From a virus: 37,415 bases of DNA. The stretch lies in the IMG/VR virus record IMGVR_UViG_3300044618_002500, positions 1 through 37,415 of that record, one strand, 5' to 3'. Positions 4,439-36,327 of the stretch are shown here, in pieces (the first letter of the stretch is position 1; each line of letters opens with the position of its first letter). The notes beneath the pieces are model-generated. The model did not search any database and had not been told where the DNA came from. It worked only from the letters and a program-made list of their open reading frames with translations. The translations under genes and the position numbers were made by a program.

Positions 4439-6126
4439 CAACTTTTAAGGATTACGGCATTACAGGAACAGAAGGATATAACGGACAAATTCATACAACT
4501 TGTCCAGAGTGTTCGCATGAAAGAAAGAAAGCAAATGAAAAATGTCTCTCTGTCAATATAAACGAAGGCACATGGTTTTGTCATCATTGCGGTTGGAGCG
4601 GCGCTCTGAAAAGAGCGGCCGAAAGAAAAAGAGACATTCCAGACTTTTCGGATATTTTGCAACAGAAACAAATTGATTCAATTAAGAGTGAGGATTCCAG
4701 TCTATTTGAAGCGTTGACCTCACGCGGAATAACTGAAAAGACAATAAGAGCAAACGGTATCTTTGCAGAGATTTCTGAGTGGGATAAAACAGAGTGGTTT
4801 GGGTTTCCGTATTTTCTTGACGGGAAGTGTGTAAATATCAAATATCGTTCCGCGAACAAAGAGTTTAGACAAACGAAAGACGGTCACAGAGTTTTCTACA
4901 GACTTGATTCCATACGAGAACATAAACAGGTCGTAATTACTGAAGGCGAAATTGACGCTCTGAGTTTTTGCGAGGCTGGAATTGAAAACGTTTTGAGTGT
5001 TCCCGACGGAGCTATTGCAGCCGATGCTAGAAACGTCACACAGAAACTTGTTTTTATTGACAATTCAATAGATAAGCTCGAACATATAGAAACGTTCTAT
5101 CTTGCACTTGATTCAGACGCACCGGGTCGACGTATGACTGAAGAGCTAGCTCGTCGCTTAGGTAAAGACAGATGCAAAACTGTAATCTTTCCAGAGGGCT
5201 GTAAGGACGCGAACGATGTTCTATTGATTCATGGCAAAGAGCAACTTTACAAGTGTCTTGACGATGCTCTGGACTATCCAATAGACGGAGTTTATTTGCT
5301 CTCTGATTCTTATGCTAATTTACAGGACATATACGATAATGGTTTCCAACAAGGCGTTTCCACAAACGAGTGGCCAAACTTAGACAGGCTGATTAAATGG
5401 TTTGCTGGTCATTTCACTGTGGTCACTGGAATACCCTCTCACGGAAAGTCAAACTTTATTGATAATTTACTTGTCAACTTAGCAAGGCATAATGGCTGGC
5501 GTGCCGCTGTTTTTTCTCCAGAGAACCCTACGCCTGAAACTTGGGTTATTCGCTTACTTGAGATTGCAACAGGCCGACCATTTTTTGGACAGAATAGAAT
5601 TGAACAGGAAAAGTTGAAGGGAACACTTGACGCTCTTGCTCAGTATTTCTATTTAATTACGCCAGACGATTCCTATACTCTGGACGTTGTGCTGGCAACA
5701 GCGAAGAGCTTACTCAGAAAAGTTGGAATAAACGCTCTTGTTATTGACCCTTGGAACAATTTAGAAGTCAAAGGAAAGAGCGGCGAAAATGAAACAGCAT
5801 ATACGGCTAGAGTCTTGGTTCGTCTCCGTACTTTTGCTAGACAGACTGGAGTTCACGTTATATTGATTGCACACCCTAGAAAGATGCAAAAGAACACAGA
5901 CGGCAACTATGAAATTCCAACCGCTTACGATATTTCAGGAAGTGCGCACTTTTACAACGTAGCTGATAATATCGTTTCGGTATACAGAGAGTTCCTAAAT
6001 GATAGCGACGATTTGAGCCGCACTCATGTTTTTATTCAAAAAGTAAAAACGAAATACTCTGGACAAATAGGCTGTGCAACTTTTGATTTCGACAAACAGA
6101 CGCAACGATATATGGAGAGAGTATGA
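4435..6126 (+). CDS. Bifunctional primase-helicase (T7 gp4-like)
   Basis: The 563-residue protein has three parts. A zinc-binding primase domain has Cys23, Cys26, Cys49 and Cys52 (CPEC...CHHC). A TOPRIM domain has TEGEIDAL at 169-176 and DSDAPG at 226-231. A DnaB/RecA-type hexameric helicase has Walker A GIPSHGKSN at 332-340. The helicase part continues with ALVIDPWN as Walker B (about 439-446) and HVILIAHPRK (about 479-488). It unwinds the fork and lays primers for lagging-strand synthesis in the cytoplasm. Length and order match T7 gp4. It overlaps its neighbours as ATGA on both sides. No DNA polymerase gene is visible in this window, so the phage may use the host enzyme or encode it outside. 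Confidence 0.92.
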   Translation: MTTFKDYGITGTEGYNGQIHTTCPECSHERKKANEKCLSVNINEGTWFCHHCGWSGALKRAAERKRDIPDFSDILQQKQIDSIKSEDSSLFEALTSRGITEKTIRANGIFAEISEWDKTEWFGFPYFLDGKCVNIKYRSANKEFRQTKDGHRVFYRLDSIREHKQVVITEGEIDALSFCEAGIENVLSVPDGAIAADARNVTQKLVFIDNSIDKLEHIETFYLALDSDAPGRRMTEELARRLGKDRCKTVIFPEGCKDANDVLLIHGKEQLYKCLDDALDYPIDGVYLLSDSYANLQDIYDNGFQQGVSTNEWPNLDRLIKWFAGHFTVVTGIPSHGKSNFIDNLLVNLARHNGWRAAVFSPENPTPETWVIRLLEIATGRPFFGQNRIEQEKLKGTLDALAQYFYLITPDDSYTLDVVLATAKSLLRKVGINALVIDPWNNLEVKGKSGENETAYTARVLVRLRTFARQTGVHVILIAHPRKMQKNTDGNYEIPTAYDISGSAHFYNVADNIVSVYREFLNDSDDLSRTHVFIQKVKTKYSGQIGCATFDFDKQTQRYMERV

Positions 6127-6392
6127 ATAAGCAAGCAGCGGTAAAAATGTTCAAAGCTAAAAAACAAACAAAGAGATTCCGAAAAAATCAAATTGTATGG
6201 GTTCTTGAAGACTTCGCACATTATGCAATAATATGGCACCAATGGCAAGGTAAAGGAAGATACGTGCTTTCAAAAATTGCCAAGTTTAACAATAAAGGCT
6301 GGAACTCAATTATAGGTGATAATGGGTTCAAAGAAATAGCCGTCACCTTAGATGAATTTTTCCCTGGTGGAATTAACTTTGAAGAGCACTAA
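6123..6392 (+). CDS. Hypothetical 89-residue protein
   Basis: ATG 6123 overlaps the end of the primase-helicase (ATGA). The N terminus is very basic (KMFKAKKQTKRFRKNQ) and the rest reads like a small beta domain with aromatic residues (VWVLEDFAHYAIIWHQWQGKGRYV). A small nucleic-acid-binding fold is possible. No family is recognised. Translational coupling to the helicase is likely from the overlap. Confidence 0.6.
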   Translation: MNKQAAVKMFKAKKQTKRFRKNQIVWVLEDFAHYAIIWHQWQGKGRYVLSKIAKFNNKGWNSIIGDNGFKEIAVTLDEFFPGGINFEEH

Positions 6393-6427
6393 TAAAGCAT
6401 AGCAAATAAAAATAAAGGAGACAGAAC

Positions 6428-6715
6428 ATGAGCAAACAGCAAACGGCGGTAGAGTGGTTGAAGCAAAGTATAGAAAATACGTCTATACATTGGGGTTCGG
6501 AATTATACTATAACCAAAAAGGCGATAGTTTCAATTACCTTGTAATTAGAATACAGCCCGAAAAATTAGACGAGTTTTTTCACCAAGCTAAGCAAATGGA
6601 AAAAGAGCAGATTGTTGATGCGCATTTACTCGGACTTGTACATGATTTGACAAAAGATGTATGCACACAAGCAGAGGAATACTATAAAGAAACCTACGGA
6701 GGCGACCATGAGTAA
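6428..6715 (+). CDS. Small AVEWL-type phage protein of unknown function
   Basis: ATG 6428 follows a strong AAAGGAGA site (6414-6421). The 95-residue protein opens with TAVEWLKQSI and ends with AEEYYKETYGG, with a central FFHQAKQMEKEQIVDAHLLG. This arrangement is familiar from short hypothetical proteins in Bacteroidota phages and prophages, which supports the host guess. Function is unknown. It overlaps the next gene by eight bases. Confidence 0.65.
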   Translation: MSKQQTAVEWLKQSIENTSIHWGSELYYNQKGDSFNYLVIRIQPEKLDEFFHQAKQMEKEQIVDAHLLGLVHDLTKDVCTQAEEYYKETYGGDHE

Positions 6716-7094
6716 GCAAAAAAAGTCTCTTTCAGAACAGTTGAAAGAGGAACGCCTTAGACTAGAGTCTTCAGCCATAGCAGAGACGGAATGTGAAGAA
6801 CAAAAAAAGAAAAGAAAGTGGAAATACACAACAGCGAAGTTCCAGTCAAATGTAGAAACTAAGATTGAAAGAGCACAAAAAAACAAACAAGAAAAAACTG
6901 TTTTAATCAAGACAAGCAAACCAGGACCAAAGCCAAAACCTGAAAACAAGAACTTAGTTCGTTTTCATCATGGCATGGAACGTGCTCTTGTAATCAAAAT
7001 GAGAGAATACTCTAGTTCCTCAGGAGTCCCTTTAAGACGTGTAATTGAAGACGGAATAAAACTCTACTTTCAGAAATTGGAGAAAGGTAAGTGA
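6708..7094 (+). CDS. Basic protein with possible ribbon-helix-helix-like C terminus
   Basis: The start is ATG 6708, after GGAGG at 6699-6703; an upstream in-frame start at 6657 would lie deep in the previous gene. The 128-residue protein is Lys/Glu-rich with a coiled N-terminal half and a proline-lysine linker (KPGPKPKPE). Its C terminus (LVRFHHGMERALVIKMREYSSSSG, then VIEDGIKLYFQKLE) looks like a short DNA-binding module of the ribbon-helix-helix type. It could be a transcription factor or DNA-binding accessory. The domain call is weak. Confidence 0.5.
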   Translation: MSKQKKSLSEQLKEERLRLESSAIAETECEEQKKKRKWKYTTAKFQSNVETKIERAQKNKQEKTVLIKTSKPGPKPKPENKNLVRFHHGMERALVIKMREYSSSSGVPLRRVIEDGIKLYFQKLEKGK

Positions 7095-7462
7095 AACATA
7101 ACTCAGACTTCAAATATGACTTGCTTGTTGGAATTGAGTATGAAGGAAAAGTTGCGGACATGCTACGGAACAAAAAAGTTGAAGTCAAGACAGATTTCAT
7201 TGCACACAAAACAGGAAACATTGCTATCGAATTTCAAAGTAGGGGTAAGCCGTCTGGAATATCAATAACTGAAGCTGATTACTACGTCTATCTTATTCCG
7301 TTTGCGCCGCTCTCTGAAATCATGATTGTTGCCAAAGTATCGGAGCTTAAAAAAATTACTCGTATCTTTGGAAAGCAAAACGGAGTCAAAACAATGGGTG
7401 ACTCGAATACTTCGAAATCTGTCTTAATTCCAATCAAGAGGCTGTTCAAACATGAAGACTAA
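7091..7462 (+). CDS. PD-(D/E)XK endonuclease-like protein
   Basis: GTG 7091 overlaps the preceding stop (GTGA). In 123 residues, KVEVKTDF (29-36) followed by GNIAIEFQSRGKPSGI (42-57) matches a phage nuclease-like family in which an ExK pair and a downstream Glu form the metal site: here Glu31, Lys33 and Glu47. Glu18 (EYEGK) could complete it. TEADYYVYLIP then gives the characteristic strand. Relatives are thought to act as Holliday-junction or structure-specific nucleases, but the substrate is not shown here. It overlaps the next nuclease gene by 11 bases. Confidence 0.6.
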   Translation: MKHNSDFKYDLLVGIEYEGKVADMLRNKKVEVKTDFIAHKTGNIAIEFQSRGKPSGISITEADYYVYLIPFAPLSEIMIVAKVSELKKITRIFGKQNGVKTMGDSNTSKSVLIPIKRLFKHED

Positions 7463-7790
7463 AAAATACGAGACCAATCACAATGCTTTTCTCTTTATAT
7501 GCAAAGCACAGGGTATAGAAGGCATTGTTCCAGAGTTTATGTTTGCAGCCGAACTAAAACGAAAGTGGAGATTTGACTTTGCCATACCAGAGGCAATGTT
7601 AGCAATAGAGATAGAGGGCGGTCTGTGGATTACAGGCCGTCACAATAGAGCATCTGGCTTTGTTAAGGACATGGAAAAGTACAACACCGCTGCTACTCTA
7701 GGTTGGCGTGTTTTGAAATTTACGCCACAGGAAATTCAGAAAGATTCCACATACCAAACAATCAAGAAATGTCTGGAGACAAAAGCATGA
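7452..7790 (+). CDS. Vsr/VRR-like PD-(D/E)XK endonuclease
   Basis: The 112-residue protein contains RKWRFDFAIPEAMLAIEIEGG (its core is Asp42, Glu53 and Glu55), then GRHNRASGFVKDMEKYNTA and GWRVLKFTPQEI. This order matches small Vsr-fold or DUF559-type nucleases common in phage replication modules. ATG 7452 lies inside the end of the previous nuclease gene, suggesting coupled translation. A role in resolving branched DNA or processing intermediates is inferred. Two consecutive nuclease genes of the same superfold are notable. Confidence 0.68.
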   Translation: MKTKKYETNHNAFLFICKAQGIEGIVPEFMFAAELKRKWRFDFAIPEAMLAIEIEGGLWITGRHNRASGFVKDMEKYNTAATLGWRVLKFTPQEIQKDSTYQTIKKCLETKA

Positions 7791-8347
7791 ATAAAAAATA
7801 TAAAACTATCTTAATAGACCCACCTTGGAAATATGGGAAATGGGGCGTAGGAAGTAAAAAAAGCGCTTTCAAATCAAAATACAATCAAGAGCCGAAATCA
7901 ATTGAGTACGAAACATTGACTACAGAGCAAATTAGAAATATAGACATAAAAAGTCTAGCATCTGAAAATTGCGAACTGTATCTGTGGACTACTCAAAAAT
8001 ACCTACCGTTTTCTTTTGACATAATAAAAAGCTGGGGCTTTAAGTATTGCCAAACTTTGGCATGGTGTAAAGCTCCAATGGGTAAGGGACAGGGGGGAAT
8101 TTACTGTCCGACAACAGAGTTCTTGATTCTTGCAAGAGTAGGTAAAGCGCCAAAAGTCAAGCGAGAAGATTCTACATGGTGGAGAGTCAAGAGAACAGGC
8201 CGCCATTCTCAAAAGCCAGTTTTCTTTCACGAGCTAATTGAAAAAGTTACTGAAGAGCCGCGACTCGAAATGTTTGCAAGAGCAAAAAGAGAGGGCTGGG
8301 ATGTCTGGGGTAATGAAGTTAACTCAGACATATATTTTGAAATATAA
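7787..8347 (+). CDS. MT-A70-family DNA adenine N6-methyltransferase
   Basis: The start is ATG 7787, overlapping the previous stop (ATGA) with GGAG at 7775-7778; an upstream in-frame start at 7703 is inside the nuclease gene. The 186-residue protein begins MNKKYKTILIDPPWKYG, with the DPPW catalytic motif at 11-14. It continues with LYLWTTQKYLPFSFDIIKSWGF (start of the SAM fold), CPTTEFLILARVGK and GRHSQKPVFFHELIE. This is the standard MT-A70/Ime4-like phage layout. It should methylate adenine N6 in DNA using S-adenosylmethionine, probably to protect phage DNA. The target sequence cannot be read from here. Confidence 0.88.
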   Translation: MNKKYKTILIDPPWKYGKWGVGSKKSAFKSKYNQEPKSIEYETLTTEQIRNIDIKSLASENCELYLWTTQKYLPFSFDIIKSWGFKYCQTLAWCKAPMGKGQGGIYCPTTEFLILARVGKAPKVKREDSTWWRVKRTGRHSQKPVFFHELIEKVTEEPRLEMFARAKREGWDVWGNEVNSDIYFEI

Positions 8348-8353
8348 AAATAA

Positions 8354-8384
8354 TTTTTGCGGTTCAATATAAACCGTATATTCG
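8354..8384 (+). promoter_or_regulatory. Promoter of Bacteroidota-like type
   Basis: TTTTTGCG (8354-8361) and TATATTCG (8377-8384) frame a 15-base spacer containing CAATATAAAC. Almost the same layout recurs at 10398-10429. The second box resembles the Bacteroidota -7 element TAnnTTTG, with TTCG at its end, and TTG lies 17 bases before it. ATG 8406 follows at a suitable distance. It should drive the SSB-like gene. Confidence 0.6.
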
Positions 8385-8405
8385 CATAAACTATTGGAGA
8401 TAGAC

Positions 8406-8744
8406 ATGAGTAAATTTAGAGTTACTGGAACCCTTATTGAGAAAGGCGCACCTGTTCAATTTTCAGACAAGTTTACAAAAGCTGAAGTCGTAATTGAAAC
8501 GCAGGGCAAATATCCAGACTACATAAAGTTTGAAGTTGTCAACGATGACATTAAGATTCTTGACAATGTAAAAACCCTAGATGAAGTTGAAGCGGAAGGT
8601 TATGTTCAAGGCCGACGCTATACTGACAAAAAGACAAACGAACTGAGATATATGAACTCATTGCGACTGAAAAGCGTGAGGTCTCTTTCGTCCTCTGGTC
8701 AATCGTCTGGCGACGAGTCTGATTTCTTCACAAGCGGTTTTTAA
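8406..8744 (+). CDS. DUF3127-like single-stranded DNA-binding protein
   Basis: ATG 8406 follows TTGGAG (8394-8399). The first 75 residues (FRVTGTLIEKGAPVQFSDKFTK, then AEVVIETQGKYPDYIKFEV) match the DUF3127 family, an OB-fold group found mainly in Bacteroidota. The later GYVQGRRYTDKKTNELRYMNSL fits its last strands. A Ser-rich linker leads to the C-terminal tip DESDFFTSGF, which resembles the acidic, Phe-ended tail that SSB uses to recruit partners. I infer that it coats single-stranded DNA at phage forks and may load the Sak4-like ATPase. It has its own promoter and terminator, suggesting high expression. Confidence 0.7.
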   Translation: MSKFRVTGTLIEKGAPVQFSDKFTKAEVVIETQGKYPDYIKFEVVNDDIKILDNVKTLDEVEAEGYVQGRRYTDKKTNELRYMNSLRLKSVRSLSSSGQSSGDESDFFTSGF

Positions 8745-8757
8745 ACCGCTTTTTTTG
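8732..8757 (+). terminator. Intrinsic terminator of the SSB-like gene
   Basis: AAGCGGTTT and AAACCGCTT form a stem with a tiny loop, followed by a run of Ts to 8756. The stop codon of the SSB-like gene (8742-8744) lies within the hairpin. Confidence 0.85.
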
Positions 8758-8766
8758 TTTCTGCTT

Positions 8767-9012
8767 ATGAGTGATATTGATTACACCGAAGGCTCTCTGT
8801 TAGAGTGGAAAGCTACTGACAACGGGTTTGTAGCTAGGATATGGAAAAACAATAGAATATACTTAGGTATTCTCTCTCGTAAAGGGAACAGCTGGAAACT
8901 AGACTTAATAAAAAATTCAGACAAAAGCTCCGTGCTGAAAATGACTTTCGTTTGTAAAGACGAAGAGCAAGTCAAGGCAAAGTCTGAATACTATATTTAC
9001 GACGGAATTTAA
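8767..9012 (+). CDS. Hypothetical 81-residue protein
   Basis: The start is ATG 8767, ten bases after the terminator's T-run; an earlier TTG at 8755 lies within the T-run. The sequence (MSDIDYTEGSLLEWKATDNG, then FVARIWKNNRIYLGILSRKG) looks like a compact beta-barrel or SH3-like fold with a basic patch. No Shine-Dalgarno is clear. No family recognised. It must be transcribed by read-through or from an unseen promoter. Confidence 0.55.
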   Translation: MSDIDYTEGSLLEWKATDNGFVARIWKNNRIYLGILSRKGNSWKLDLIKNSDKSSVLKMTFVCKDEEQVKAKSEYYIYDGI

Positions 9013-9033
9013 TCACAATTGTCTATAAAAAAA

Positions 9034-9654
9034 ATGAAAGATTACAGAAGTTTTTTCGGTTTTTCTACGGCGGCTCTTCATGGCAAAACAATGGAAAGGT
9101 ATTTGAAGGCATTGAACCAAAGTAAGCCGCTCTCCATTTTGCAACATGGAATCATAATGGAAAGAGACGCTTTTTTGATTCATGAAACAGTTTCGAAAAT
9201 AAGCCCCTCGTACGCCTTGTTTTCAAGTATCTCGTCCGATAACGCGGTTCACGAGATTACAGCTCTTAAACAGGCCGAAACAGGCCTTTCAGACGATTCT
9301 TTGAAGCTCGACGCTATCTATGTTTGTCAAGAGGGTCCGACCGACTTGTTACCTAGCTTATTTCTCAGAGAGGGTTTTGAAGCTGCAATCAAACCAGAGG
9401 GGACTCTTTTGTTTATTGCCTCTTTTACTGATACGAAGTGGGTAACGTTAGATTCAAAGCAGCACGAAAAGTTTGGCTTTTCTCTGGAGCTTTTGGAAAA
9501 ACAGGATAATGAGAGCAGCAAAATATCTTTTCATGTTTATAGGCTCAAAATAGACAAGGCAAACGAACAGAACGAAGCTGCAAAAACAAATAAAACAAAA
9601 AAGCCTCTTTCAGACGAGGCAAAACTCATCACTAAATTTCAAGAGTCAAAATGA
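9034..9654 (+). CDS. Unknown protein, possibly a degenerate methyltransferase fold
   Basis: The start is taken as ATG 9034; a TTG at 9019 is possible and neither has a good ribosome site. The 206-residue protein has KLDAIYVCQEG, LREGFEAAIKPEGTLLFIASF and a late FHVYRLKI. These resemble the second half of class I SAM-dependent methyltransferases (aspartate strand, 'L.pgG.L.f' strand, closing hairpin). The glycine-rich SAM loop of the N-terminal half is not visible, so activity is doubtful. A Lys-rich tail follows (KANEQNEAAKTNKTKK). The fold call is low-confidence. Confidence 0.45.
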   Translation: MKDYRSFFGFSTAALHGKTMERYLKALNQSKPLSILQHGIIMERDAFLIHETVSKISPSYALFSSISSDNAVHEITALKQAETGLSDDSLKLDAIYVCQEGPTDLLPSLFLREGFEAAIKPEGTLLFIASFTDTKWVTLDSKQHEKFGFSLELLEKQDNESSKISFHVYRLKIDKANEQNEAAKTNKTKKPLSDEAKLITKFQESK

Positions 9655-9920
9655 AAAACAATCTAAGTACATTCGTTCCACTTTTAGTGCTTTCCGTTGT
9701 AGCTTTGGGCGCGACCCTTGGTGTTGGAGACGGAAGTTTCAGTACATTCGCGGTCGGCTTGACCAAGTATACGCTCGCAGTTGGAGCTGCTTGGTTTGTC
9801 GACTCGTTCTTAGTCAAGGAGGTTAACACACGTGATATCATTTCCAAAGACCCTATTGCTTACGCTTTGTTTATCTCTGCTAATATCATCACAGCCGCTC
9901 TCTGCTTTTCGCAGTCATGA
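9651..9920 (+). CDS. Holin-like small membrane protein
   Basis: The 89-residue protein has hydrophobic segments at about 8-27 (FVPLLVLSVVALGATLGVG), 33-53 (AVGLTKYTLAVGAAWFVDSF) and 68-86 (PIAYALFISANIITAALCF). Three helices in under 100 residues directly ahead of an endolysin fit a class I holin, which would form lesions in the inner membrane at the time of lysis. The N terminus is MKNNLS. No holin family is recognised by sequence, so this is based on topology and place. Its last 89 bases also encode the start of the endolysin in another frame. Confidence 0.5.
   Translation: MKNNLSTFVPLLVLSVVALGATLGVGDGSFSTFAVGLTKYTLAVGAAWFVDSFLVKEVNTRDIISKDPIAYALFISANIITAALCFSQS
9816..9822 (+). promoter_or_regulatory. 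Perfect Shine-Dalgarno that decides the endolysin start
   Basis: AAGGAGG at 9816-9822 lies nine bases before GTG 9832. It is the strongest ribosome site in this part of the window and lies within the holin-like gene. No ATG occurs anywhere in the endolysin frame, so this GTG is the only good start. Confidence 0.8.
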
Positions 9921-10389
9921 AACTTACTTGATAGCCAAAGGTTTCATTGGAACAAAAGAGGTCGGCAACAATGGTGGATATTGGATTGAAAGATTCCAGA
10001 AAATAACTAGGTCTCCAAAAGGCGCTCAATGGTGCGCAAGTTTTGTCAACTTCTGTCTTGATTCAGCTGGAGTGAGAGGTTTACCGTTTACTGGTTCTGG
10101 TTTGGCTAGACATTTTGTGTCGCGAAATAAGACAACAAAAGCGACAGATGTCTTGACTAAAAATATCGAACTCCCACCGGGAACGATAATCGTCTGGAGA
10201 CGAGGCACAACTCCGTTTGGACACGCTGGAATAGTAGAGAAATGGAAAGGAAAAAGCGGAACTACAGTTGAAGGCAATACTAGTTCTGGAAAGAAAGGCT
10301 CGCAGCACGATGGTGACGGAGTTTGGAGGCGAACAAGAACGATAAACCCGACCGCTTACTTTCGAATAACTGATTTCATAGTCTACTAA
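9832..10389 (+). CDS. Secreted CHAP/NlpC-type endolysin
   Basis: GTG 9832 with the perfect AAGGAGG site starts a 185-residue protein. Residues 1-25 (basic MISFPK, a hydrophobic LLLTLCLSLLIS core, then PLSA) look like a cleavable signal peptide. The mature part has the Cys-His pattern of CHAP-type amidase/peptidases: Cys68 in QWCASFVNFC, His131 in FGHAGIVEKW, and an Asn/Glu in VEGNTSSG. It should cut peptidoglycan. With an export signal it would be released by Sec rather than only by holin pores, so the holin-like partner may time or speed release. The first 89 bases overlap the holin-like gene in a different frame. Confidence 0.82.
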   Translation: MISFPKTLLLTLCLSLLISSQPLSAFRSHETYLIAKGFIGTKEVGNNGGYWIERFQKITRSPKGAQWCASFVNFCLDSAGVRGLPFTGSGLARHFVSRNKTTKATDVLTKNIELPPGTIIVWRRGTTPFGHAGIVEKWKGKSGTTVEGNTSSGKKGSQHDGDGVWRRTRTINPTAYFRITDFIVY

Positions 10390-10397
10390 GAAAAAGA

Positions 10398-10429
10398 TTT
10401 TTGCGTCTCAATATAAACTTTTACATTCG
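10398..10429 (+). promoter_or_regulatory. Promoter of Bacteroidota-like type, upstream of a terminator
   Basis: TTTTTGCG (10398-10405), then TCTCAATATAAAC, then TACATTCG (10422-10429) nearly repeats the promoter at 8354-8384. The spacer is 16 instead of 15 bases. It lies 8 bases after the endolysin stop. The only feature between it and the terminator at 10474 is a hairpin region. Confidence 0.62.
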
Positions 10430-10431
10430 AG

Positions 10432-10504
10432 TGCAAATCTATGTTTGCATTCTGTTCTCATGCCTTTCTCCGCAGGGGCTACTCTTGGGTAGCCCTTGTT
10501 TTTG
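10432..10504 (+). ncRNA. Candidate small RNA or attenuator leader with two hairpins
   Basis: Directly after the promoter, TGCAAA (10432-10437) pairs with TTTGCA (10444-10449). A second hairpin with a T-run ends the segment at about 10504. Transcription from about 10435 would give a ~70-base RNA unless the polymerase reads through. The arrangement recalls a late-promoter/terminator pair controlled by antitermination. A ten-codon frame at 10460-10492 lacks a ribosome site. Confidence 0.4.
10474..10504 (+). terminator. Intrinsic terminator ahead of the late genes
   Basis: AGGGGCTAC and GTAGCCCTT form a nine-base stem including a G-T pair, with a loop of about five bases, followed by GTTTTT. It ends about ten bases before ATG 10515. 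Confidence 0.85.
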
Positions 10505-10514
10505 ATATAAAAAA

Positions 10515-10811
10515 ATGGACCTAATAATTGAAACCGCTCGCAACATACTCGCAGTCATTGTTTCCGTTGGGACTTTGGCTATAATGTTTTTGCGTTATTT
10601 GAATAGAGAGCGTTTACAGCACGCAAAACTTGTAAGCGAAATCATTGAAAAGACAGCAATGAGGGTTTTTACTACGACAGCTTTAGAGCATCGTGTCAAA
10701 ATGTTGGAAGACGCTGAAAAAGCAAACCAAGAATATATGCGTGAGTCATTCGCTCAAGTTAACAATAGACTTGACCAAATTTATTCGATAATTGCAGCGC
10801 TCAAAAAATGA
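10515..10811 (+). CDS. Small membrane protein with coiled-coil tail
   Basis: The 98-residue protein has one transmembrane helix at about 7-26 (ARNILAVIVSVGTLAIMFLRYL) followed by a basic stretch. It then has a long helical region (LVSEIIEKTAMRVFTTTALEHRVK, then NQEYMRESFAQVNNRLDQIYSII). This single-TM plus coiled-coil shape is common in phage lysis accessory or XhlA-like proteins. No clear Shine-Dalgarno precedes ATG 10515. It overlaps the next gene as ATGA. Its role in lysis is inferred from place and shape only. Confidence 0.55.
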   Translation: MDLIIETARNILAVIVSVGTLAIMFLRYLNRERLQHAKLVSEIIEKTAMRVFTTTALEHRVKMLEDAEKANQEYMRESFAQVNNRLDQIYSIIAALKK

Positions 10812-11008
10812 AATACAATTTCGGTCTCAGATATTGGAAAGAGCCGACCCCTACAAAAATTCGTAGAGTGTTCGGAGCTATCTCGTCCGCTGGCGTTGCT
10901 GCTTGCGGTTTTGCTTTTTTAAGGGATAACATAGCTTTGGCTATTTTCTTTCTTGTGTGTGCCTCTGGAGGCGCTTTCATATCAAAGTTATTCTCGGAGA
11001 AACCGTGA
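10808..11008 (+). CDS. Small two-helix membrane protein
   Basis: ATG 10808 overlaps the preceding stop. The 66-residue protein has a basic N terminus (MKYNFGLRYWKEPTPTKIRR) followed by two hydrophobic segments, VFGAISSAGVAACGFAFL and NIALAIFFLVCASGGAFI, separated by RD. It is likely an inner-membrane hairpin protein. A holin or holin-modulator role is possible given the lysis genes close by. No family recognised. It overlaps the next gene as GTGA. Confidence 0.55.
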   Translation: MKYNFGLRYWKEPTPTKIRRVFGAISSAGVAACGFAFLRDNIALAIFFLVCASGGAFISKLFSEKP

Positions 11009-11343
11009 GAGAAAAATACAATATCACAATTTACAGAGGCGAAACTTTCAGCACGCAAGTTGAACTTCGTGATGCTAGCAACTCTGCAATCTCTTTGAGC
11101 GGTGCTACGGTTACCTCTTCATGCCGTTCGAAAACTACCAACGAAATACTTTTCAATTTCTCTTGCATCATTACAAACCCAAGTTCGAATGGAATTTTTG
11201 TTTTGGGTTTGCCAAGTGCTTCAAGTCAGAATTTAACGCCTCAAAAAAATTTGATATACGATGTAAGAATTATGTTTGCGAGTGGAGATGTCAAGTATTG
11301 GTTGGGAGGCGATGTTGAAGTGAAAGACACGGTGACTACATGA
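11005..11343 (+). CDS. Fibre/baseplate-associated beta protein
   Basis: The start is GTG 11005 with GGAGA at 10996-11000, overlapping the previous stop. The 112-residue protein reads as an Ig-like beta sandwich: ITIYRGETFSTQVELRDAS, then ISLSGATVTSSCRSK, and a late YDVRIMFASGDVKYWLGGDVEV. Short phage proteins with 'RGdtf...v.l.da.g.p.dLtG' occur beside fibre and baseplate genes, where they act as structural or attachment modules. It is the first of four fibre-type genes here. Exact virion position unknown. Confidence 0.55.
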   Translation: MREKYNITIYRGETFSTQVELRDASNSAISLSGATVTSSCRSKTTNEILFNFSCIITNPSSNGIFVLGLPSASSQNLTPQKNLIYDVRIMFASGDVKYWLGGDVEVKDTVTT

Positions 11344-11711
11344 GCATAAGCACAGACAAAGTTGTAATCACAGCGCGGCCGCAAGATGTCAATATCAATA
11401 TCGAACAAGGCACTGGCGACATAAACATTAAAACAGTTCCAGAGGTAATAACGGTTCAAGTTGGAGCTACCGTTCAAACTTCGTCTGGAACTTTTGTCAT
11501 TGGTGAGCAGCCGATAGGAATTGTCAACGGTAGCAACGCAACTTTCTATTCAGAATTTTCCTTTGAACCTGATTCAATTCAAGTTTTTGTAAATGGGGTA
11601 AACCAAGCACTCGGAATTGATTTTTACACTATAAGTTCCAACACAATCATATTGAACACGTCACCAATTACAGGTGATATATTGCGAATAAATTACAAAG
11701 TAGGTGAATGA
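11340..11711 (+). CDS. Tail-fibre-type protein with C-terminal beta domain
   Basis: ATG 11340 overlaps the previous stop. The N-terminal half (STDKVVITARPQDVNINIEQ) is beta-rich. Residues about 60-123 (GIVNGSNATFYSEF, FEPDSIQVFVNGVNQ, then ITGDILRINYKVG) match a repeated phage fibre domain of the pattern 'NGSN..F......P.si.VyvNG......DY....GD.l...Y'. The same domain ends the next gene, so the two are related by domain duplication. It is likely part of the distal fibre. Confidence 0.6.
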   Translation: MSISTDKVVITARPQDVNINIEQGTGDINIKTVPEVITVQVGATVQTSSGTFVIGEQPIGIVNGSNATFYSEFSFEPDSIQVFVNGVNQALGIDFYTISSNTIILNTSPITGDILRINYKVGE

Positions 11712-11712
11712 T

Positions 11713-12537
11713 ATGCCAGAGACTACAATTGCCTCGCGTCAGATACGCGACGGAGCGATAACCAATAGTAAAGTCGCAGCGGGCGCTGCAATAGATTCAA
11801 GTAAACTAGCAGACGGCGCAAACTTTTTGAAGAAAGACGGCTCTGTTTCTCTAACAGGAAATTTGAGTGCGGGAAATAATAAGATTACAACTCTTGCAAC
11901 CCCAACAGATTCTGGAGACGCAGCAAACAAAAGCTATGTTGACACTCAAATTGCGAGTCTCCCTAGTGCCTACAAATACCGCAATGTCCGAGTAGCTACG
12001 ACTTCATTGATTGATATAACAACCCCTGGTACGAGTTCCTTTGACGGCGTCTCAGTATCCTCTGGACAACGAATACTTGTTTGGCAACAATCAAATCAAT
12101 CGCAGAACGGTATCTATGTTTTCAATGGTACATTTTCTGCAATGACAAGAGCGCAGGATTCAAACGCGTGGGACGAACTAACTGGAAGTTTGGTATATGT
12201 AGATGAAGGCACTCTCTACGGTGATAAGAGATTCTTTTGCACGTCTGATTCAGGCGGCACGCTTGGTTCCTCACCTGTAGTTTACTCGCAGGATATTGGA
12301 GGTTCGTTGTCCACCGCAAACTTTGTTACTGAAGAGACTCCAAGCGGTTCAATTAACGGCTCTAACACATACTTTACGTTAGCAAACACACCTACAACAG
12401 GAACTGTCAAAGTATATTTGAACGGTATCAGACTGAAGAGTGGAGCGGGCAATGATTACACAATGGGTACGACTGCAATCAATATGATAACAGCACCTGT
12501 TAGTGGTGACGTATTGTTAGTTGACTACATGAAATAA
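11713..12537 (+). CDS. Tail fibre protein
   Basis: The start is taken as ATG 11713; a GTG at 11704 is also in frame. The 274-residue protein has three regions. An N-terminal helical region follows ETTIASRQIRDGAITNSKVAAGAAID, a form common at fibre attachment ends, with ANKSYVDTQIASL. A middle beta region has GQRILVWQQSNQSQNGIYVFNG and FFCTSDSGG, as found in phage fibres. The C-terminal domain (INGSNTYFTLANTP, VKVYLNGIRLK, APVSGDVLLVDYMK) is shared with the preceding gene. It is probably a trimeric adhesion fibre. Confidence 0.7.
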   Translation: MPETTIASRQIRDGAITNSKVAAGAAIDSSKLADGANFLKKDGSVSLTGNLSAGNNKITTLATPTDSGDAANKSYVDTQIASLPSAYKYRNVRVATTSLIDITTPGTSSFDGVSVSSGQRILVWQQSNQSQNGIYVFNGTFSAMTRAQDSNAWDELTGSLVYVDEGTLYGDKRFFCTSDSGGTLGSSPVVYSQDIGGSLSTANFVTEETPSGSINGSNTYFTLANTPTTGTVKVYLNGIRLKSGAGNDYTMGTTAINMITAPVSGDVLLVDYMK

Positions 12538-12557
12538 ACGCTACATAGGAGAAGGCA

Positions 12558-13409
12558 ATGTCTGAAACAAGATTAAACAATTCGCAACTACCAGCGACGT
12601 TACAAAATAAGACCATTGATACCTCTAATGATATTTCAACGACCACTTCGAAATTGAAAGTCAGCGGAGGTACAAATGGTCAGGTTTTAACAACCGACGG
12701 TTCGGGAAATCTTTCTTGGTTAACAGCTCAGCCGAATATACCAGACGGCGACAAAGGTGATATCACAGTAGGTAGTTCGGGTACTACTTGGACAATTGAT
12801 AATGATGCTGTCACTTATGCAAAGATTCAGAATGTATCAGCCGCTTCAAAACTCTTAGGCCGTGGCGACTCAGGTTCGGGTGATGTTCAAGAGATTACAC
12901 TCGGAACAGGCTTGACAATGACAGGCACTACTTTGGCCGCAAGCGGTGGTGATATACCTACATTCATGGTTGTAAAAAGCGCAGACGAAACAGTTATCAA
13001 TTCAAATACATTACAACCTGATGATGAAATAGTATTTTCAGCAACAGCTGGAAAAAGATACTATTTTGAATGCGTTGTCATATATCAACGCTCGAATTTT
13101 GGCGGGGGCGGTGACCAACCCGGAATAAGAATTACAATGGGAAATGAGCTTGCTATACAAGGTTTAATGAATGTAATCCCGTTGCATCCAAGTAACACGG
13201 TATGGGTATTTGGAGGCGACTCTTTCCCGGGTCGCATAGACTATTCAGCTTCAATTACCCAAGCAATTGCAATAAAAATGCAAGGCACATATTTTCCACA
13301 AACAGGTCAAAACGCTATTATGCGGCTAAGATGGACGCAAATTACCCCGTCGACAACGGTGGGAACAATGGTGTTAAAAGGAAGTAAATTATTAGTATGG
13401 GAATTGTGA
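12558..13409 (+). CDS. Tail fibre / receptor-binding-type protein
   Basis: ATG 12558 has AGGAGAAGG at 12547-12555. The N-terminal 120 residues (LKVSGGTNGQVLTTDGSGNLSW, AVTYAKIQNVSAASKLLGRGDSG, then VQEITLGTGLTMTGTTL) are a fibre-shaft pattern widespread in phages of Bacteroidota and other hosts. The C-terminal 150 residues (from DIPTFMVVKSADETVI to GSKLLVWEL) form a compact beta domain, with TAGKRYYFECVV and AIMRLRWTQI, that is a good candidate for the receptor-binding head. It overlaps the next gene by one base. Confidence 0.7.
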   Translation: MSETRLNNSQLPATLQNKTIDTSNDISTTTSKLKVSGGTNGQVLTTDGSGNLSWLTAQPNIPDGDKGDITVGSSGTTWTIDNDAVTYAKIQNVSAASKLLGRGDSGSGDVQEITLGTGLTMTGTTLAASGGDIPTFMVVKSADETVINSNTLQPDDEIVFSATAGKRYYFECVVIYQRSNFGGGGDQPGIRITMGNELAIQGLMNVIPLHPSNTVWVFGGDSFPGRIDYSASITQAIAIKMQGTYFPQTGQNAIMRLRWTQITPSTTVGTMVLKGSKLLVWEL

Positions 13410-13615
13410 TGAAATTAAAATTAAAGTATGAAGCAGTAAAACGAATTCCAATAAAATGGGATAACGAAGGAAACGAAATTGAATGGAATGAAATTCCTGT
13501 TTTGTTATGGAAATTTATAGACGAGAATGGCAATCTTTGGAATACCGAAACTGTTATTGAAGCGACAGAAGGTGAAGCAAAAGAAATCATTTTGCAAAGT
13601 TTAGAAAGTGAGTAA
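13409..13615 (+). CDS. Hypothetical acidic 68-residue protein
   Basis: The start is taken as ATG 13409, overlapping the fibre stop as TGATG; an in-frame ATG at 13397 would overlap more. The product is rich in Glu and Trp (IKWDNEGNEIEWNEIPVLLW, KFIDENGNLWNTETVIE). A small protein directly behind a fibre gene may be a fibre assembly factor, as for some phage chaperones; this is positional inference only. Confidence 0.5.
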   Translation: MKLKLKYEAVKRIPIKWDNEGNEIEWNEIPVLLWKFIDENGNLWNTETVIEATEGEAKEIILQSLESE

Positions 13616-14486
13616 ACAAAAGAGAAATATCCGTGTTTCAGTGAATGAAGACGAATATCGTTTTGTTCGCGAGGTTTTGCACAAAAGCAAAGGCGCTGGA
13701 CGAAAGGCGAAAATCAGTGAGGTGGATTCCTTTGTTTCTGAGTGGCTTCATTCTTTTCCAGACGGTCAAGAGCAAGTAAAAAATACAATTACCGTAGAGG
13801 GCAAAGTTGCCGTCTTGAGTGATATTCACTTAGGAGTCCATGACAAACAAGCAATTGTTTCTGTCTTAACTTATCTCAAAAAAGAAAAGCCAGACTCAAT
13901 TGTTTTGAACGGCGACATAATGGACTCAGCTGCTATTTCTCGGCACCCCAAAGGACAGAACACACCAAAATATCTATATGAGTTGGAGCTTTGCAAAAAC
14001 TTTCTAACCGCAATTAGAGCTGATTACCCTTACGCAAAAATATATTTCAAAGAGGGGAATCACGAAGACAGGTTGCATAGATATATTCAAGAAAAAGTTA
14101 ACGAGTTAGAAGGCGTTGTTTTGCTAAACGAGCTACTTGATTTGAAAGCAAAAGATATAACTCATGTAGAAAGCACTCAGTTTATGAGAGCAAACAAAGT
14201 ATTCATTATTCATGGTCATGAATTGAAAGTCTCTGGTGGAATAAACCCCGCTCGTTCTTTGTTGCTGAAATCTTTTGAAAATACAATCATGGGTCATGTT
14301 CACAGGACGAGCTTTTCCTCTGGCAAAAGCATAGACGGAAAGACAATCAGAACTTGGACAACCGGTTGCTTATGTAAGCTCTCACAATCTTATATGCCTC
14401 ACTCTGCTAGCAATCATGGTTTTGCTATCATTGAACAAGACGGCGCTGTTCGAAATCATTTCTTGATAAACGGAGTAATAGAGTGA
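13608..14486 (+). CDS. Calcineurin-like metallophosphoesterase
   Basis: GTG 13608 lies inside the end of the previous gene. The N-terminal 60 residues (NIRVSVNEDEYRFVREVLHK) look like a small helical DNA-binding-type module. The phosphoesterase motifs then appear in order: SDIHLG (Asp72, His74), NGDIMD (Asp103), GNHED (Asn151, His152), IHGHE (His202, His204) and GHVH (His230, His232). All metal ligands are present, so it should be an active two-metal hydrolase of phosphate esters. Substrate unknown; relatives include nucleotidases and nucleases. It sits between fibre and spanin-like genes. Confidence 0.85.
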   Translation: MSKQKRNIRVSVNEDEYRFVREVLHKSKGAGRKAKISEVDSFVSEWLHSFPDGQEQVKNTITVEGKVAVLSDIHLGVHDKQAIVSVLTYLKKEKPDSIVLNGDIMDSAAISRHPKGQNTPKYLYELELCKNFLTAIRADYPYAKIYFKEGNHEDRLHRYIQEKVNELEGVVLLNELLDLKAKDITHVESTQFMRANKVFIIHGHELKVSGGINPARSLLLKSFENTIMGHVHRTSFSSGKSIDGKTIRTWTTGCLCKLSQSYMPHSASNHGFAIIEQDGAVRNHFLINGVIE

Positions 14487-14971
14487 ACGCTATTGGAAAA
14501 TATCTATCATGGATGTCAACTATTGTTTTCCTATATTTCATTTTGTTGGAAGTTCGCGGTTGCAAAGAAAGGCCTACTCATTTCATAAGAAAAGACACAA
14601 TTCAAAGCACGAAAATAATTGAAAGGCCTGTCTTCATAAGAGATACAATAAAAATCAAATCTGTTGCTTGGAAATTCAAAGACTCTCTGATATATGTAGA
14701 AACTGGAGAGTTGCCTTGTAATGATACGAGCTTCATTGCACAAGCAGACTCAGTAATTACGAACACAGGTGATACTCTAAACCTTGCTTTTTCTTATCAT
14801 GATAGGAAAGGCAACTTTTCGCTTGTCTTCAAACCGCGTCCAGACTCTGTATTGATTAAAACGATAGAAATTCCAATAACAGAGCCGAACAAGCTCTCTG
14901 ATTTCGGCGCTTTGCTTGGAACTTTTGGTCTCGGACTCTTAATTGGAGTCGGGGCTGTTTTATCTAGATGA
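14483..14971 (+). CDS. Spanin-like envelope protein with two terminal hydrophobic segments
   Basis: GTG 14483 overlaps the phosphoesterase stop. Residues about 5-24 (GKYLSWMSTIVFLYFILLEV) form an N-terminal membrane helix. A Thr/Ile-rich periplasmic-type stretch follows (FIRKDTIQSTKIIERPVFIRDTI) and a C-terminal hydrophobic segment (ALLGTFGLGLLIGVGAVL) ends the protein. Repeated 'DTI..' patterns are common in Bacteroidota phage membrane proteins near lysis genes. An envelope or spanin-like role is inferred; no lipobox is visible. Confidence 0.5.
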   Translation: MNAIGKYLSWMSTIVFLYFILLEVRGCKERPTHFIRKDTIQSTKIIERPVFIRDTIKIKSVAWKFKDSLIYVETGELPCNDTSFIAQADSVITNTGDTLNLAFSYHDRKGNFSLVFKPRPDSVLIKTIEIPITEPNKLSDFGALLGTFGLGLLIGVGAVLSR

Positions 14972-14985
14972 ATAAGCTAACTAAA

Positions 14986-15024
14986 AATACCGTATTTTAG
15001 GCCTACAAGGCCGTATACGCTTCG
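14986..15024 (+). repeat. Short palindromic element between the spanin-like and ParB genes
   Basis: Within the 88-base gap, CCGTAT occurs twice around GGCC-TACAA-GGCC, giving a small hairpin at about 15000-15012 with GTAT/ATAC available as an outer stem. There is no T-run, so it is not a standard terminator. It may be an operator or ParB-type site. A strong enough promoter is not evident. Confidence 0.35.
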
Positions 15025-15059
15025 AAAAACAAAAAAAGGTGTCAGAATAGGAGTATATC

Positions 15060-15659
15060 ATGAAAATTGCCGTAAACAAGCTGAAAGAGAACCCCAACAA
15101 CCCGCGCGTGATAAGAGATGCGAATTTCAAGAAACTCGTAAGCTCAATTAAGAGCTTTCCAGAGATGCTTTCTGTCCGAAAAATTGTGGTCAATAATGAT
15201 TACGAGGTTTTGGGTGGAAACATGAGGCTAAAAGCGCTGAAAGAGGCGGGCGTAAAAGAAGTCGAAATTGAAGTTGTTGACTGGCCTATTGAAAAGCAGA
15301 AAGAGTTTATCATTAAAGACAATGTTTCCTTTGGTGAGTGGAATTACGAGCTGCTAGCAAATGAGTGGGAATATCAAGACTTGACAGACTGGGGTTTAAC
15401 CGTACCCGGTCTTGAAAAGTTAGAGGGTGATACGGCGTTAGAAGACTTTTTTCTTGAAACAGAAAAGCCAGAGGGCGACGATATTTCCGTAAGCGTAAAG
15501 GACGACGGATATTCACGTTTTGAACTCATTATGTTTCATGATAACAAAAAGCGTTTAATGGAAACATTGAATAAGATTAAACAAAAGCATGACCTAGAAA
15601 AATTAGAGGACGCTCTTATGGAGCTTGTCTTTATTTATGAAAAGTATGACAGAGGCTAA
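15060..15659 (+). CDS. ParB-like protein (IbrB-type), first copy
   Basis: ATG 15060 follows TAGGAG (15047-15052). The 199-residue protein has a ParB/sulfiredoxin-fold N-terminal domain: LKENPNNPR at 8-16, then YEVLGGNMRLKALKEAG at 48-64, where GGNMR is the phosphate-binding turn that replaces GERR of classical ParB. A partner region follows (FIIKDNVSFGEWNYELLANEW). The C-terminal part is acidic and helical. It lacks the KorB-type helix-turn-helix of partition ParB. It heads a four-gene cassette with a cupin, a PP-loop ATPase and a second ParB-like gene. Confidence 0.8.
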   Translation: MKIAVNKLKENPNNPRVIRDANFKKLVSSIKSFPEMLSVRKIVVNNDYEVLGGNMRLKALKEAGVKEVEIEVVDWPIEKQKEFIIKDNVSFGEWNYELLANEWEYQDLTDWGLTVPGLEKLEGDTALEDFFLETEKPEGDDISVSVKDDGYSRFELIMFHDNKKRLMETLNKIKQKHDLEKLEDALMELVFIYEKYDRG

Positions 15660-15662
15660 AAA

Positions 15663-16466
15663 ATGAGACAAGAAACAAATTCATTCATAAGTTTTGGCAT
15701 TTCAGAGGCGGGTCTTGTTTTTGACGATAGCAGCCACGAAAAATATCCTCTTCGTTTTTACAACGTTATAGACGGTGAGGGTTTACCAACGCATGACAAA
15801 GTAGCTGATTATTCCTACTTTGTTTTTGTGTATCAAGGTGAGGCGGGGCTTACGCTCCCTACAGGATTACAAGCGCTGTTGCCAAAAGACACATATTTTT
15901 CAACGCATGGTTTTTACAAGCTAGCAGGCTCGTACAAGGCAATTGTTATTGAAGTCATATCAGACAGCGGATACTATGGACAGACAGGATATACGGCATA
16001 TACGAGTATCGGTGGAACAGTTGAAGAGAAAGGTCGCTTAAAATATATCGACGGTTGTACGGACAGCCTCTTGATATCTCCAGTCAAGAAAGGAGACCCA
16101 TGTCTGAATCACTTACACTTTCCTAGAGAGATTACACAAACGCCACACACTCACCCAACTCATAGATTTGGAATTGTTATCAGAGGCGACGGTGAATGTG
16201 TAACTCCGTTTGGAAATTTGCCTCTCGTAGAAGGCTGTGTGTTCGTGATAAAAGAGTACGACGGTGTTGGAATGCATGTTGGTCTTGACGGCTCTCTGTA
16301 CGAGGCTGGAACGCATAAATTTAATACATACGGAAACTCTATGGACGTTATAGCTTTCCACCCTGACTCAGACTTTGGTCCAGAGGACGAGTTTCATCCA
16401 ATGATAAACAGAACAATCGTTCACGGCGTTTCCGCTGCAAACATTGAATCTATCAGAACAAAGTAA
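15663..16466 (+). CDS. Cupin-domain protein
   Basis: The gene starts 3 bases after the ParB-like gene. The 267-residue protein has a C-terminal cupin: HTHPTHRFGIVIRGDGECV (about 163-181), a turn with GNLPLVEGCVFVI, and HKFNTYGNSMDVIAFHP (about 219-235). The His residues of HTHPTH and HKF are candidate metal ligands. The N-terminal half (YFVFVYQGEAGLTLPTG, YKAIVIEVISDSG) may be a second, ligand-free barrel. Cupins include many dioxygenases, isomerases and binding proteins, so the reaction is not predictable. The cassette context suggests it acts with the PP-loop ATPase. Confidence 0.75.
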   Translation: MRQETNSFISFGISEAGLVFDDSSHEKYPLRFYNVIDGEGLPTHDKVADYSYFVFVYQGEAGLTLPTGLQALLPKDTYFSTHGFYKLAGSYKAIVIEVISDSGYYGQTGYTAYTSIGGTVEEKGRLKYIDGCTDSLLISPVKKGDPCLNHLHFPREITQTPHTHPTHRFGIVIRGDGECVTPFGNLPLVEGCVFVIKEYDGVGMHVGLDGSLYEAGTHKFNTYGNSMDVIAFHPDSDFGPEDEFHPMINRTIVHGVSAANIESIRTK

Positions 16467-16469
16467 ATA

Positions 16470-17696
16470 ATGAGAGAAAGCAAAATGAGTGAAGCGAATA
16501 GAAAGCCAACGAAAGCAAAGCAAACAATGTCTAGGCCAAAGAGCTATAAAGAGACAGATGTTTGGAACGAAGCTCTGGACAGAATACGATATATCTACGA
16601 TAGTTTTGACAAGGTTGTTGTTTCTTTCTCTGGAGGGAAGGACTCGACAGCTGTCCTAAACGCTACAATAGCAGTTGCTCGCGAGAAAGGAAAGCTACCA
16701 GTTGAAGCGGTGTTCTTTGACGAAGAGGCTATTCACCCGCCGACAATTGAATATGTCGAAAGAGTAAGCAAGAATCCTGATGTAAAACTCAAGTGGTTTT
16801 GTCTAGAGGTCAAACATAGAAACGCTTGTTCGAATGAAGAGCCTTTCTGGTATACATGGGAAAAAGGAAAAGAGGATAAGTGGGTAAGACCGATGCCAGA
16901 GGGTGCAATTACAGAGCACCCGAGGTTCAAGAAAGGAATGAGTTTTCAAGACTTCGCTCCCTATATCTACAACAGAGCAGACGGTCGCGTCGCTATGCTT
17001 GTTGGAATAAGGACTGAAGAGAGCTTGCGTAGACTTCGAACAATTGTCTCAAAAAAAGAAGAGGCTTTTCTATCAAGTAACAGCGCAAACGGAAACAATC
17101 AATACAGGTGCTTTCCAATTTACGACTGGTTAAGCACTGATGTTTGGGCGGCTGTTCGAAAATTCGGTTGGGACTATAATAGGACATACGATATCTATGA
17201 TAAAACAGACATGTTCGGTAAATATCTAGCTCAAAGAGTTTGCCCGCCTTACGGTGAGGAACCGTTGCGTGGTCTCTATCTCTATGCTGAATGCTTTCCT
17301 GAAATGTGGCACAAAATGATAGACAGAGTTCAAGGTGCGGCTACGGCTTGGAGATATGGAAACACGGAACTCTATTCCAATACAAAAACAAAGCCAGAGG
17401 GAATGAAGTGGAGTGAATACTTGCACATTATTCTTGATTCATACGAGTTAGATGCAAGAGAGGCTGTAAAGCATACGATTTCTCACTACATATATCAGCA
17501 CAGGCAACATACAAAGCAGCCGATACCAGAAGAGGAGGCGCACCCGCTAACAGGTAAAAGTTGGAAAGGAATGTGCCGTGTCGCTATTCGTGGAGACTTC
17601 AAAGAAAGACAGAAAGATTATTTCTTTACAGAGGCTCTGAAACAACAAAAGAAACTAGGCATAAATTGGCAAAAGGCACAAGAACTTTATTCATGA
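16470..17696 (+). CDS. PAPS-reductase-like PP-loop ATPase (IbrA/DUF3440-like)
   Basis: The start is ATG 16470 or the in-frame ATG 16485, which has GAGAAAG just upstream. The 408-residue protein has the PP-loop SGGKDST at 54-60, an FFDEEAIHPPTIEYV region, and GRVAMLVGIRTEESLRRLRTI (about 170-190). Its C-terminal half (DVWAAVRKFGWDYNRTYD, then LRGLYLYAECFPEMWHKM) matches the IbrA-type extension of PAPS-reductase-like proteins. Such enzymes adenylate a substrate with ATP, often before sulphur transfer. In E. coli IbrA works with a ParB-like IbrB. Here it lies between a cupin and a second ParB-like gene. Confidence 0.85.
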   Translation: MRESKMSEANRKPTKAKQTMSRPKSYKETDVWNEALDRIRYIYDSFDKVVVSFSGGKDSTAVLNATIAVAREKGKLPVEAVFFDEEAIHPPTIEYVERVSKNPDVKLKWFCLEVKHRNACSNEEPFWYTWEKGKEDKWVRPMPEGAITEHPRFKKGMSFQDFAPYIYNRADGRVAMLVGIRTEESLRRLRTIVSKKEEAFLSSNSANGNNQYRCFPIYDWLSTDVWAAVRKFGWDYNRTYDIYDKTDMFGKYLAQRVCPPYGEEPLRGLYLYAECFPEMWHKMIDRVQGAATAWRYGNTELYSNTKTKPEGMKWSEYLHIILDSYELDAREAVKHTISHYIYQHRQHTKQPIPEEEAHPLTGKSWKGMCRVAIRGDFKERQKDYFFTEALKQQKKLGINWQKAQELYS

Positions 17697-27397: not shown

Positions 27398-27410
27398 CGT
27401 TTTATTCTCA

Positions 27411-27446
27411 GAGGGTTGTCACAAGACAGCCCTCATATTTTTTTTT
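27411..27446 (+). terminator. Strong intrinsic terminator after the tail tube gene
   Basis: GAGGGTTGTC (27411-27420) and GACAGCCCTC (27425-27434) form a ten-base stem with one G-T pair and an ACAA loop, followed by ATATTTTTTTTTAT. The tube gene is often highly expressed, and the partial stop ahead of the chaperones may set the ratio. Confidence 0.9.
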
Positions 27447-27459
27447 ATAGGAGACCAAC

Positions 27460-36296: not shown

Positions 36297-36327
36297 TTGC
36301 GTTGTTTGCAAAACTGCCGTAAGTTCG
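36297..36327 (+). promoter_or_regulatory. Promoter for the right-end early genes
   Basis: TTG (36297-36299) and TAAGTTCG (36320-36327) are separated by 20 bases, a Bacteroidota-like arrangement with the same TAnnTTCG box as the promoters at 8377 and 10422. ATG 36386 is about 59 bases further on. A GCCG...CGGC hairpin can form around the start point. Confidence 0.55.

Follow-up and report, generated by a model that had tools for sequence, protein, structure and literature searches.

The question raised by this locus is what a phage makes from a promoter and a strong terminator that share one short gap at the border between its lysis and late genes. The window, by which we mean the entire stretch analysed (one complete IMG/VR virus record, 37,415 bases), carries its main genes on the + strand. 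The part up to 8744 holds genes for recombination and replication, a methyltransferase gene and, at its end, an SSB-like gene; beyond it come a small gene of membrane type, the CHAP endolysin gene (9832–10389, + strand), fibre-like, ParB-like and PAPS-reductase genes, and those for terminase, portal, head and tail. The gap of interest, 10390–10514, lies directly behind the endolysin and ahead of a gene for a 98-residue protein (10515–10811, + strand), and is the third largest of the 56 gaps in the gene list. A first-pass annotation had placed a promoter, two hairpins and a terminator ahead of the membrane and fibre genes, and every one of these elements is present in the gap. The host is probably a member of the Bacteroidota, since the primase matches, the distribution of DUF3127 and the style of the promoter all fit. 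Phages of Tenacibaculum and Flavobacterium are among the best matches of the primase; DUF3127 gave matches in 115 of the 198 Bacteroidota genomes searched and, among 14 control genomes, in a Bacteroides only.

A plain sigma-70 scan returned no + strand promoter in the gap. A Bacteroidota-type promoter is found at 10400–10429 on the + strand, with TTTG at −33 (10400–10403), an 18-nt spacer and the −7 box TACATTCG (10422–10429). The Bacteroidota consensus is given in PMC7366714 as TTTG at −33 and TAnnTTTG at −7. TTTG-N18-TACATTCG fits this primary-sigma consensus with a single base off in the −7 box. Such a match arises in 2 of 1,000 dinucleotide shuffles of the gap, and the two + strand matches seen across all gaps of at least 40 nt arise in 0 of 1,000. 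Judged by its boxes, the predicted promoter is of the host (Bacteroidota) type and not of the E. coli sigma-70 type. It had also been described as a near-copy of a promoter at 8354, and a 28-nt near-copy does lie at 8347–8374, ahead of the SSB-like gene (86% identical; E=3.8e-4 within the record), where the promoter itself (8356–8384, + strand) reads TTTG-N17-TATATTCG. With a terminator at 8732–8751, the SSB-like gene of the window forms a small unit with its own promoter copy (8356). No such copy was found before SSB in the main clade of relatives, and the + strand gaps of at least 40 nt in the late region of the window hold no other promoter of the TTTG/−7 type. A third promoter-like site of similar style, TTGCG...TAAGTTCG, lies at 36297–36327, within a gap of 449 nt that precedes the early genes. 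An exact copy of the promoter motif at L036 was set aside, the surrounding sequence being without the module.

Transcription from this promoter is predicted to start at ∼10432, close to the 10435 of the first-pass annotation, and to end at ∼10503, giving a + strand RNA of ∼72 nt. Its 5′ end would be formed by the hairpin TGCAAA-TCTATG-TTTGCA (10432–10449), the arms of which, at 10432–10437 and 10444–10449, are those of the hairpin named at first pass, and which starts two bases past the −7 box. A linker of 22 nt (10450–10471; core CTCATGCCTT..CTCC) follows, with a mean unpaired probability of 0.96, and then an intrinsic terminator (10472–10503) with a 12-pair stem at 10472–10499, a loop of 4 and a U-rich tail to 10503. 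Previously described as strong, this terminator has the longest of the 14 stems found in 5000–16000 (8.0 expected). Folding of a 74-nt RNA gave −26.5 kcal/mol (z=−4.7), and 0 of 200 shuffles were equally low. Rfam 15 covariance models returned nothing at 10390–10514 up to E=5. The unit has its own promoter and intrinsic terminator without a conserved reading frame, as an sRNA should. Two coding readings were rejected. For a leader peptide starting at the linker AUG, the frames differ in the window and L031, in the main clade and in L032, and there is therefore no conserved peptide; for a gene on the minus strand, the main-clade reverse complement reads ATG AGA TAA, an immediate stop.

The module lies directly after the endolysin stop in 33 of 33 loci from a first-round endolysin search, and a pattern scan likewise returned 33 stretches, all of the same lineage. 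Seven further loci, from contigs new to the set, came from a profile search, six of them with a recognisable module (L120, L121, L123, L126, L127 and, in degenerate form, L124). The module is absent from L133 (45% identity). Of 15 matches from a pattern scan of genome contigs, none had the promoter, hairpin 1 and terminator of the module when the flanks were examined; distant endolysins occurred in 38 of 395 sampled Bacteroidota genomes, with the module motifs not found in the six loci examined, and a nucleotide search of 50,697 phage records gave no match. The truncated L060 and L064 were removed before counts. An alignment of 13 sequences, with one copy per distinct RNA, identifies the linker as the most conserved part (CUCAUGnCUU..CUCC), with CTCATG, CTT and CTCCGC invariant. 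The terminator stem carries compensatory changes, with 96.4% of cells paired and 12 cells altered on both sides, and its covariation score of 0.428, as against 0.246 for shuffled alignments, was reached by 0 of 500 shuffles. The fold of hairpin 1, open linker and terminator is common to 14 of 14 canonical RNAs, hairpin 1 often being of different sequence among them; L124 and unit 2 of L123 are without hairpin 1.

Several relatives show further features at this place. L123 (5072–5220), and likewise L126 and L127, carries an additional sRNA-like unit 5′ of the canonical one. Its promoter reads TTTG-N19-TATATTGC, the 5′ hairpin is long, the open linker differs from the canonical one, and the terminator has seven T. 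In L123 and L127, the promoter of the canonical unit has an operator-like inverted repeat, GGAATTGTCAAAACAATTC(C), between −33 and −7, which is degenerate in L124 and L126. The contig that holds L007 and L011 (IMGVR_UViG_3300032050_006297, 47,520 bases) has two differing copies of the endolysin and sRNA module ∼37 kb apart, and possibly represents two related phages joined in assembly.

We propose that the module encodes a trans-acting phage sRNA of ∼72 nt that represses translation of the phage's own SSB-like (DUF3127) gene, a reading to which we give a probability of about 0.6. The predicted target (8406–8744, + strand) matches a phage single-strand DNA-binding protein family (PHROG 4932, E=6e-13; PF11325, E=8.7e-15) and lies ∼2 kb upstream of the module. 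The Bacteroidota primary sigma factor of the host would direct synthesis of a stable small RNA, in which the end hairpins would shield the molecule and leave the 22-nt linker open. The linker would then pair in trans, as an antisense, with the SSB-like mRNA from its Shine-Dalgarno sequence through the start codon into the opening codons, so that ribosome binding would be blocked. SSB synthesis would be restricted in time or amount, since the linker would cover the SSB ribosome-binding site. Module sequence and conservation, the compensatory terminator pairs, the open linker, and its pairing and co-variation with the SSB start are computed directly; synthesis of the RNA, repression and timing are what we infer from them. 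As SSB in the window has its own promoter copy (8356), the sRNA and the SSB mRNA could there share control.

The reverse complement of the linker, GCGGAG-AAAGG-CATGAG, resembles a Shine-Dalgarno sequence followed by a start codon, and the SSB-like start of the window, GGAGATAGACATGAG, matches the pattern GGAGNNNGNCATGAG with zero mismatches. The predicted target site spans 8394–8411 on the + strand, with GGAG at 8396–8399 and ATG at 8406–8408, and the duplex in the window comprises 14 pairs broken by two single mismatches. Co-folding of the RNA with the SSB start gains ∼17 kcal/mol and leaves both hairpins intact. The seed in the linker is accessible and conserved, and it complements the site at which translation of the predicted target begins. 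Among the conserved ortholog groups listed, the SSB start has the best mean energy with the own linker of each genome (−18.4, 9 of 9 genomes), a value reached by 0 of 1,000 permuted linkers and by 2 of 1,000 when CUCC and CAU were held fixed. When 720 windows were ranked (12 ortholog groups at 60 offsets each), the SSB start at offset +6 came first both for own-linker pairing (−21.3, against a mean of −9.9, s.d. 2.7) and for clade-matched pairing (−11.4, against −0.5, s.d. 1.8). The clade interaction is likewise strongest for SSB among the 12 ortholog groups (−9.8), and sliding along the SSB gene over 100 offsets places the maximum of both measures at the start codon.

Linker and target also change together. 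The 18 distinct linker/SSB pairs, a set that omits L020 and L055 (no ATG within range), have energies of −10.8 to −24.0, 17 of them at −15.8 or stronger; the exception is the weak pair of L007 (−10.8). Exchanging linkers between clades weakens the SSB pairing: main-clade starts mostly favour main-clade linkers, and the SSB starts of L085 and L087 favour linkers of the L085/L087 type. The 5′ part of the linker tracks SSB codons 2–5, UUGAU occurring with AUCAAG in L085 and L087, and AAUCU or UAUCU with AGAUU in the main clade. Two further exceptions are a later pair, L171, at −15.0, for which the linkers of other clades pair better, and L086, the SSB start of which pairs at −22.6 with a main-clade linker versus −18.4 with its own. 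One outlying clade, held out and found later, has lost much of the linker/SSB match. Its SSB start is without GGAG, CUCAUG is gone from the linker of L136, and its early starts as a set are weakly matched; SSB there still ranks 2 of 26, 2 of 26 and 4 of 24 among gene starts. Some of the pairing signal is generic, a pyrimidine-rich linker facing a purine-rich coding strand, and 16 of the 20 best sites in the window are not gene starts. These comparisons span few independent lineages, with the division into main and other clades set after the matrix had been inspected, and the gene starts of the relatives come from a crude script, so that some of them will be wrong.

The leading alternative, which we consider unlikely, is a late switch of the lambda kind, in which a late promoter is blocked by the terminator until the linker, as RNA or DNA, is bound by a factor of the phage or the host and polymerase can read through into the fibre, head and tail genes, the short RNA being a by-product. 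In lambda, with Q, the late genes are likewise preceded by a promoter (pR′) and then a close terminator (tR′). The module sits at the lysis/late border, the ATG of 10515 begins 11 nt past the terminator tail, the late-region + strand gaps contain no other such promoter, and the conserved linker could serve as the binding site. However, a PHROGs scan of 40 window proteins recognised no family of the Q-like, sigma or RNA-polymerase kind, in agreement with the first-pass annotation as far as Q is concerned, although a new family would escape such a scan. The gene 5′ of the lysis genes varies between clades, and the sigma-70 type expected of such a late promoter gave way to a Bacteroidota-type match. 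The switch would also leave the co-variation of the linker with the SSB start unexplained. The first-pass annotation had expected either an antiterminator or a regulatory small RNA; position, terminator covariation, open linker and co-varying predicted target all favour the latter, and the pR′/tR′ half is the less probable. Nevertheless, with 10515 so close behind the terminator and no other promoter of this type in the late-region gaps of at least 40 nt, read-through would be needed unless transcription comes from upstream, and a lambda-type switch may therefore coexist with the sRNA.

It is less probable still that the RNA is a broad early shut-off factor, with the linker a general antisense to GGAG-spacer-ATGA starts, many early genes repressed and SSB only the best matched of them. 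Such a role would suit the finding that the own linker beats all 200 shuffles on early starts in each of nine genomes (z of −3.1 to −4.5), that shuffles which keep CUCC and CAU in place equal the early value in 3 of 1,350 cases, and that gene starts make up 44 of the 180 best sites in whole-stretch scans, against ∼8 expected. However, the enrichment extends to late starts (z of −1.6 to −3.4), the early-start set is weakly matched in the held-out clade (z of −1.1, −2.8 and −1.6), and the clade-matched signal is focused on SSB. Most of the best sites are not starts. The weakest candidate, a plain border element made of a lysis-operon terminator and a weak promoter, with the linker kept for another reason such as a protein site and the SSB match due to chance, would suit a compact genome with few gaps and a linker that is complementary in general to the coding strand, but is improbable given the first rank of the SSB start by both measures, the pairing peak at its start codon and the rarity of permuted linkers that do as well with CUCC and CAU fixed.

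Under the proposed repression of SSB, other early genes could be damped as well, through weaker pairing, since they share the GGAG-spacer-ATGA start. PMC7366714 describes the Bacteroidota as a phylum without classical Shine-Dalgarno signals. We offer as a speculation, and a doubtful one, that early genes have strong GGAG starts in phages of hosts that rarely use Shine-Dalgarno sequences, so that a single start-complementary RNA could shut down early translation, SSB first, at the onset of late expression.

Among known systems, StxS of Stx phages is the closest in principle. According to PMC7873438, StxS is made from PR′ to tR′ and silences the ribosome-binding site of stx1B; it shares with the reading proposed here the production of a short RNA by termination just past a phage late promoter and the binding of a target ribosome-binding site. 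StxS is processed by RNase E, binds Hfq and acts on stx1B and rpoS, whereas the module described here has a Bacteroidota-type promoter, a predicted two-hairpin RNA of ∼72 nt and the phage's own SSB-like gene as predicted target. P22 sar and lambda OOP, reviewed in PMC12197685, are short antisense RNAs of phages with a phage gene under their control, as is proposed here; they lie opposite their targets in cis, whereas the present RNA would be encoded ∼2 kb from the SSB-like gene, on the same strand, and its pairing with that gene is imperfect. The abundant intergenic RNAs sRNA1 and sRNA2 (∼100 nt) of the Pseudomonas phage PAK_P3 were proposed to base-pair in trans (PMC4933390), their phage targets being drawn from 11-nt matches in one phage, whereas here the pairing is traced through several clades. 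The arrangement of lambda pR′/tR′ with Q resembles ours in its promoter and nearby terminator ahead of the late genes, and differs in Q itself, in its sigma-70 promoter and in the co-variation seen here between the linker and an mRNA start. Searches of the open-licence PMC literature gave no match for a phage small RNA against SSB, nor for a phage sRNA combined with a translation initiation region and early genes. Few phage small RNAs have known targets, and the examples found were mostly from enterobacterial prophages with Hfq. Here co-variation alone serves to propose both an RNA and its target, in uncultured phages whose hosts are probably Bacteroidota; if correct, the proposal would tie control of a replication protein to the late-gene border.

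Three other features of the window were recorded. The PAPS-reductase gene (16470–17696) is an auxiliary metabolic gene. Between the SSB and lysis genes, the gene at 9034–9654 is swapped between clades: in the window it encodes a 206-residue protein, unrelated to the main-clade sequence at this place, which looks glycosyltransferase-like from its translation, and elsewhere there are other proteins. The late region has another terminator-like site at 27398–27459, where a hairpin (AGGGTTGTC..GACAGCCCT) between genes of the tail region leads into nine consecutive T.
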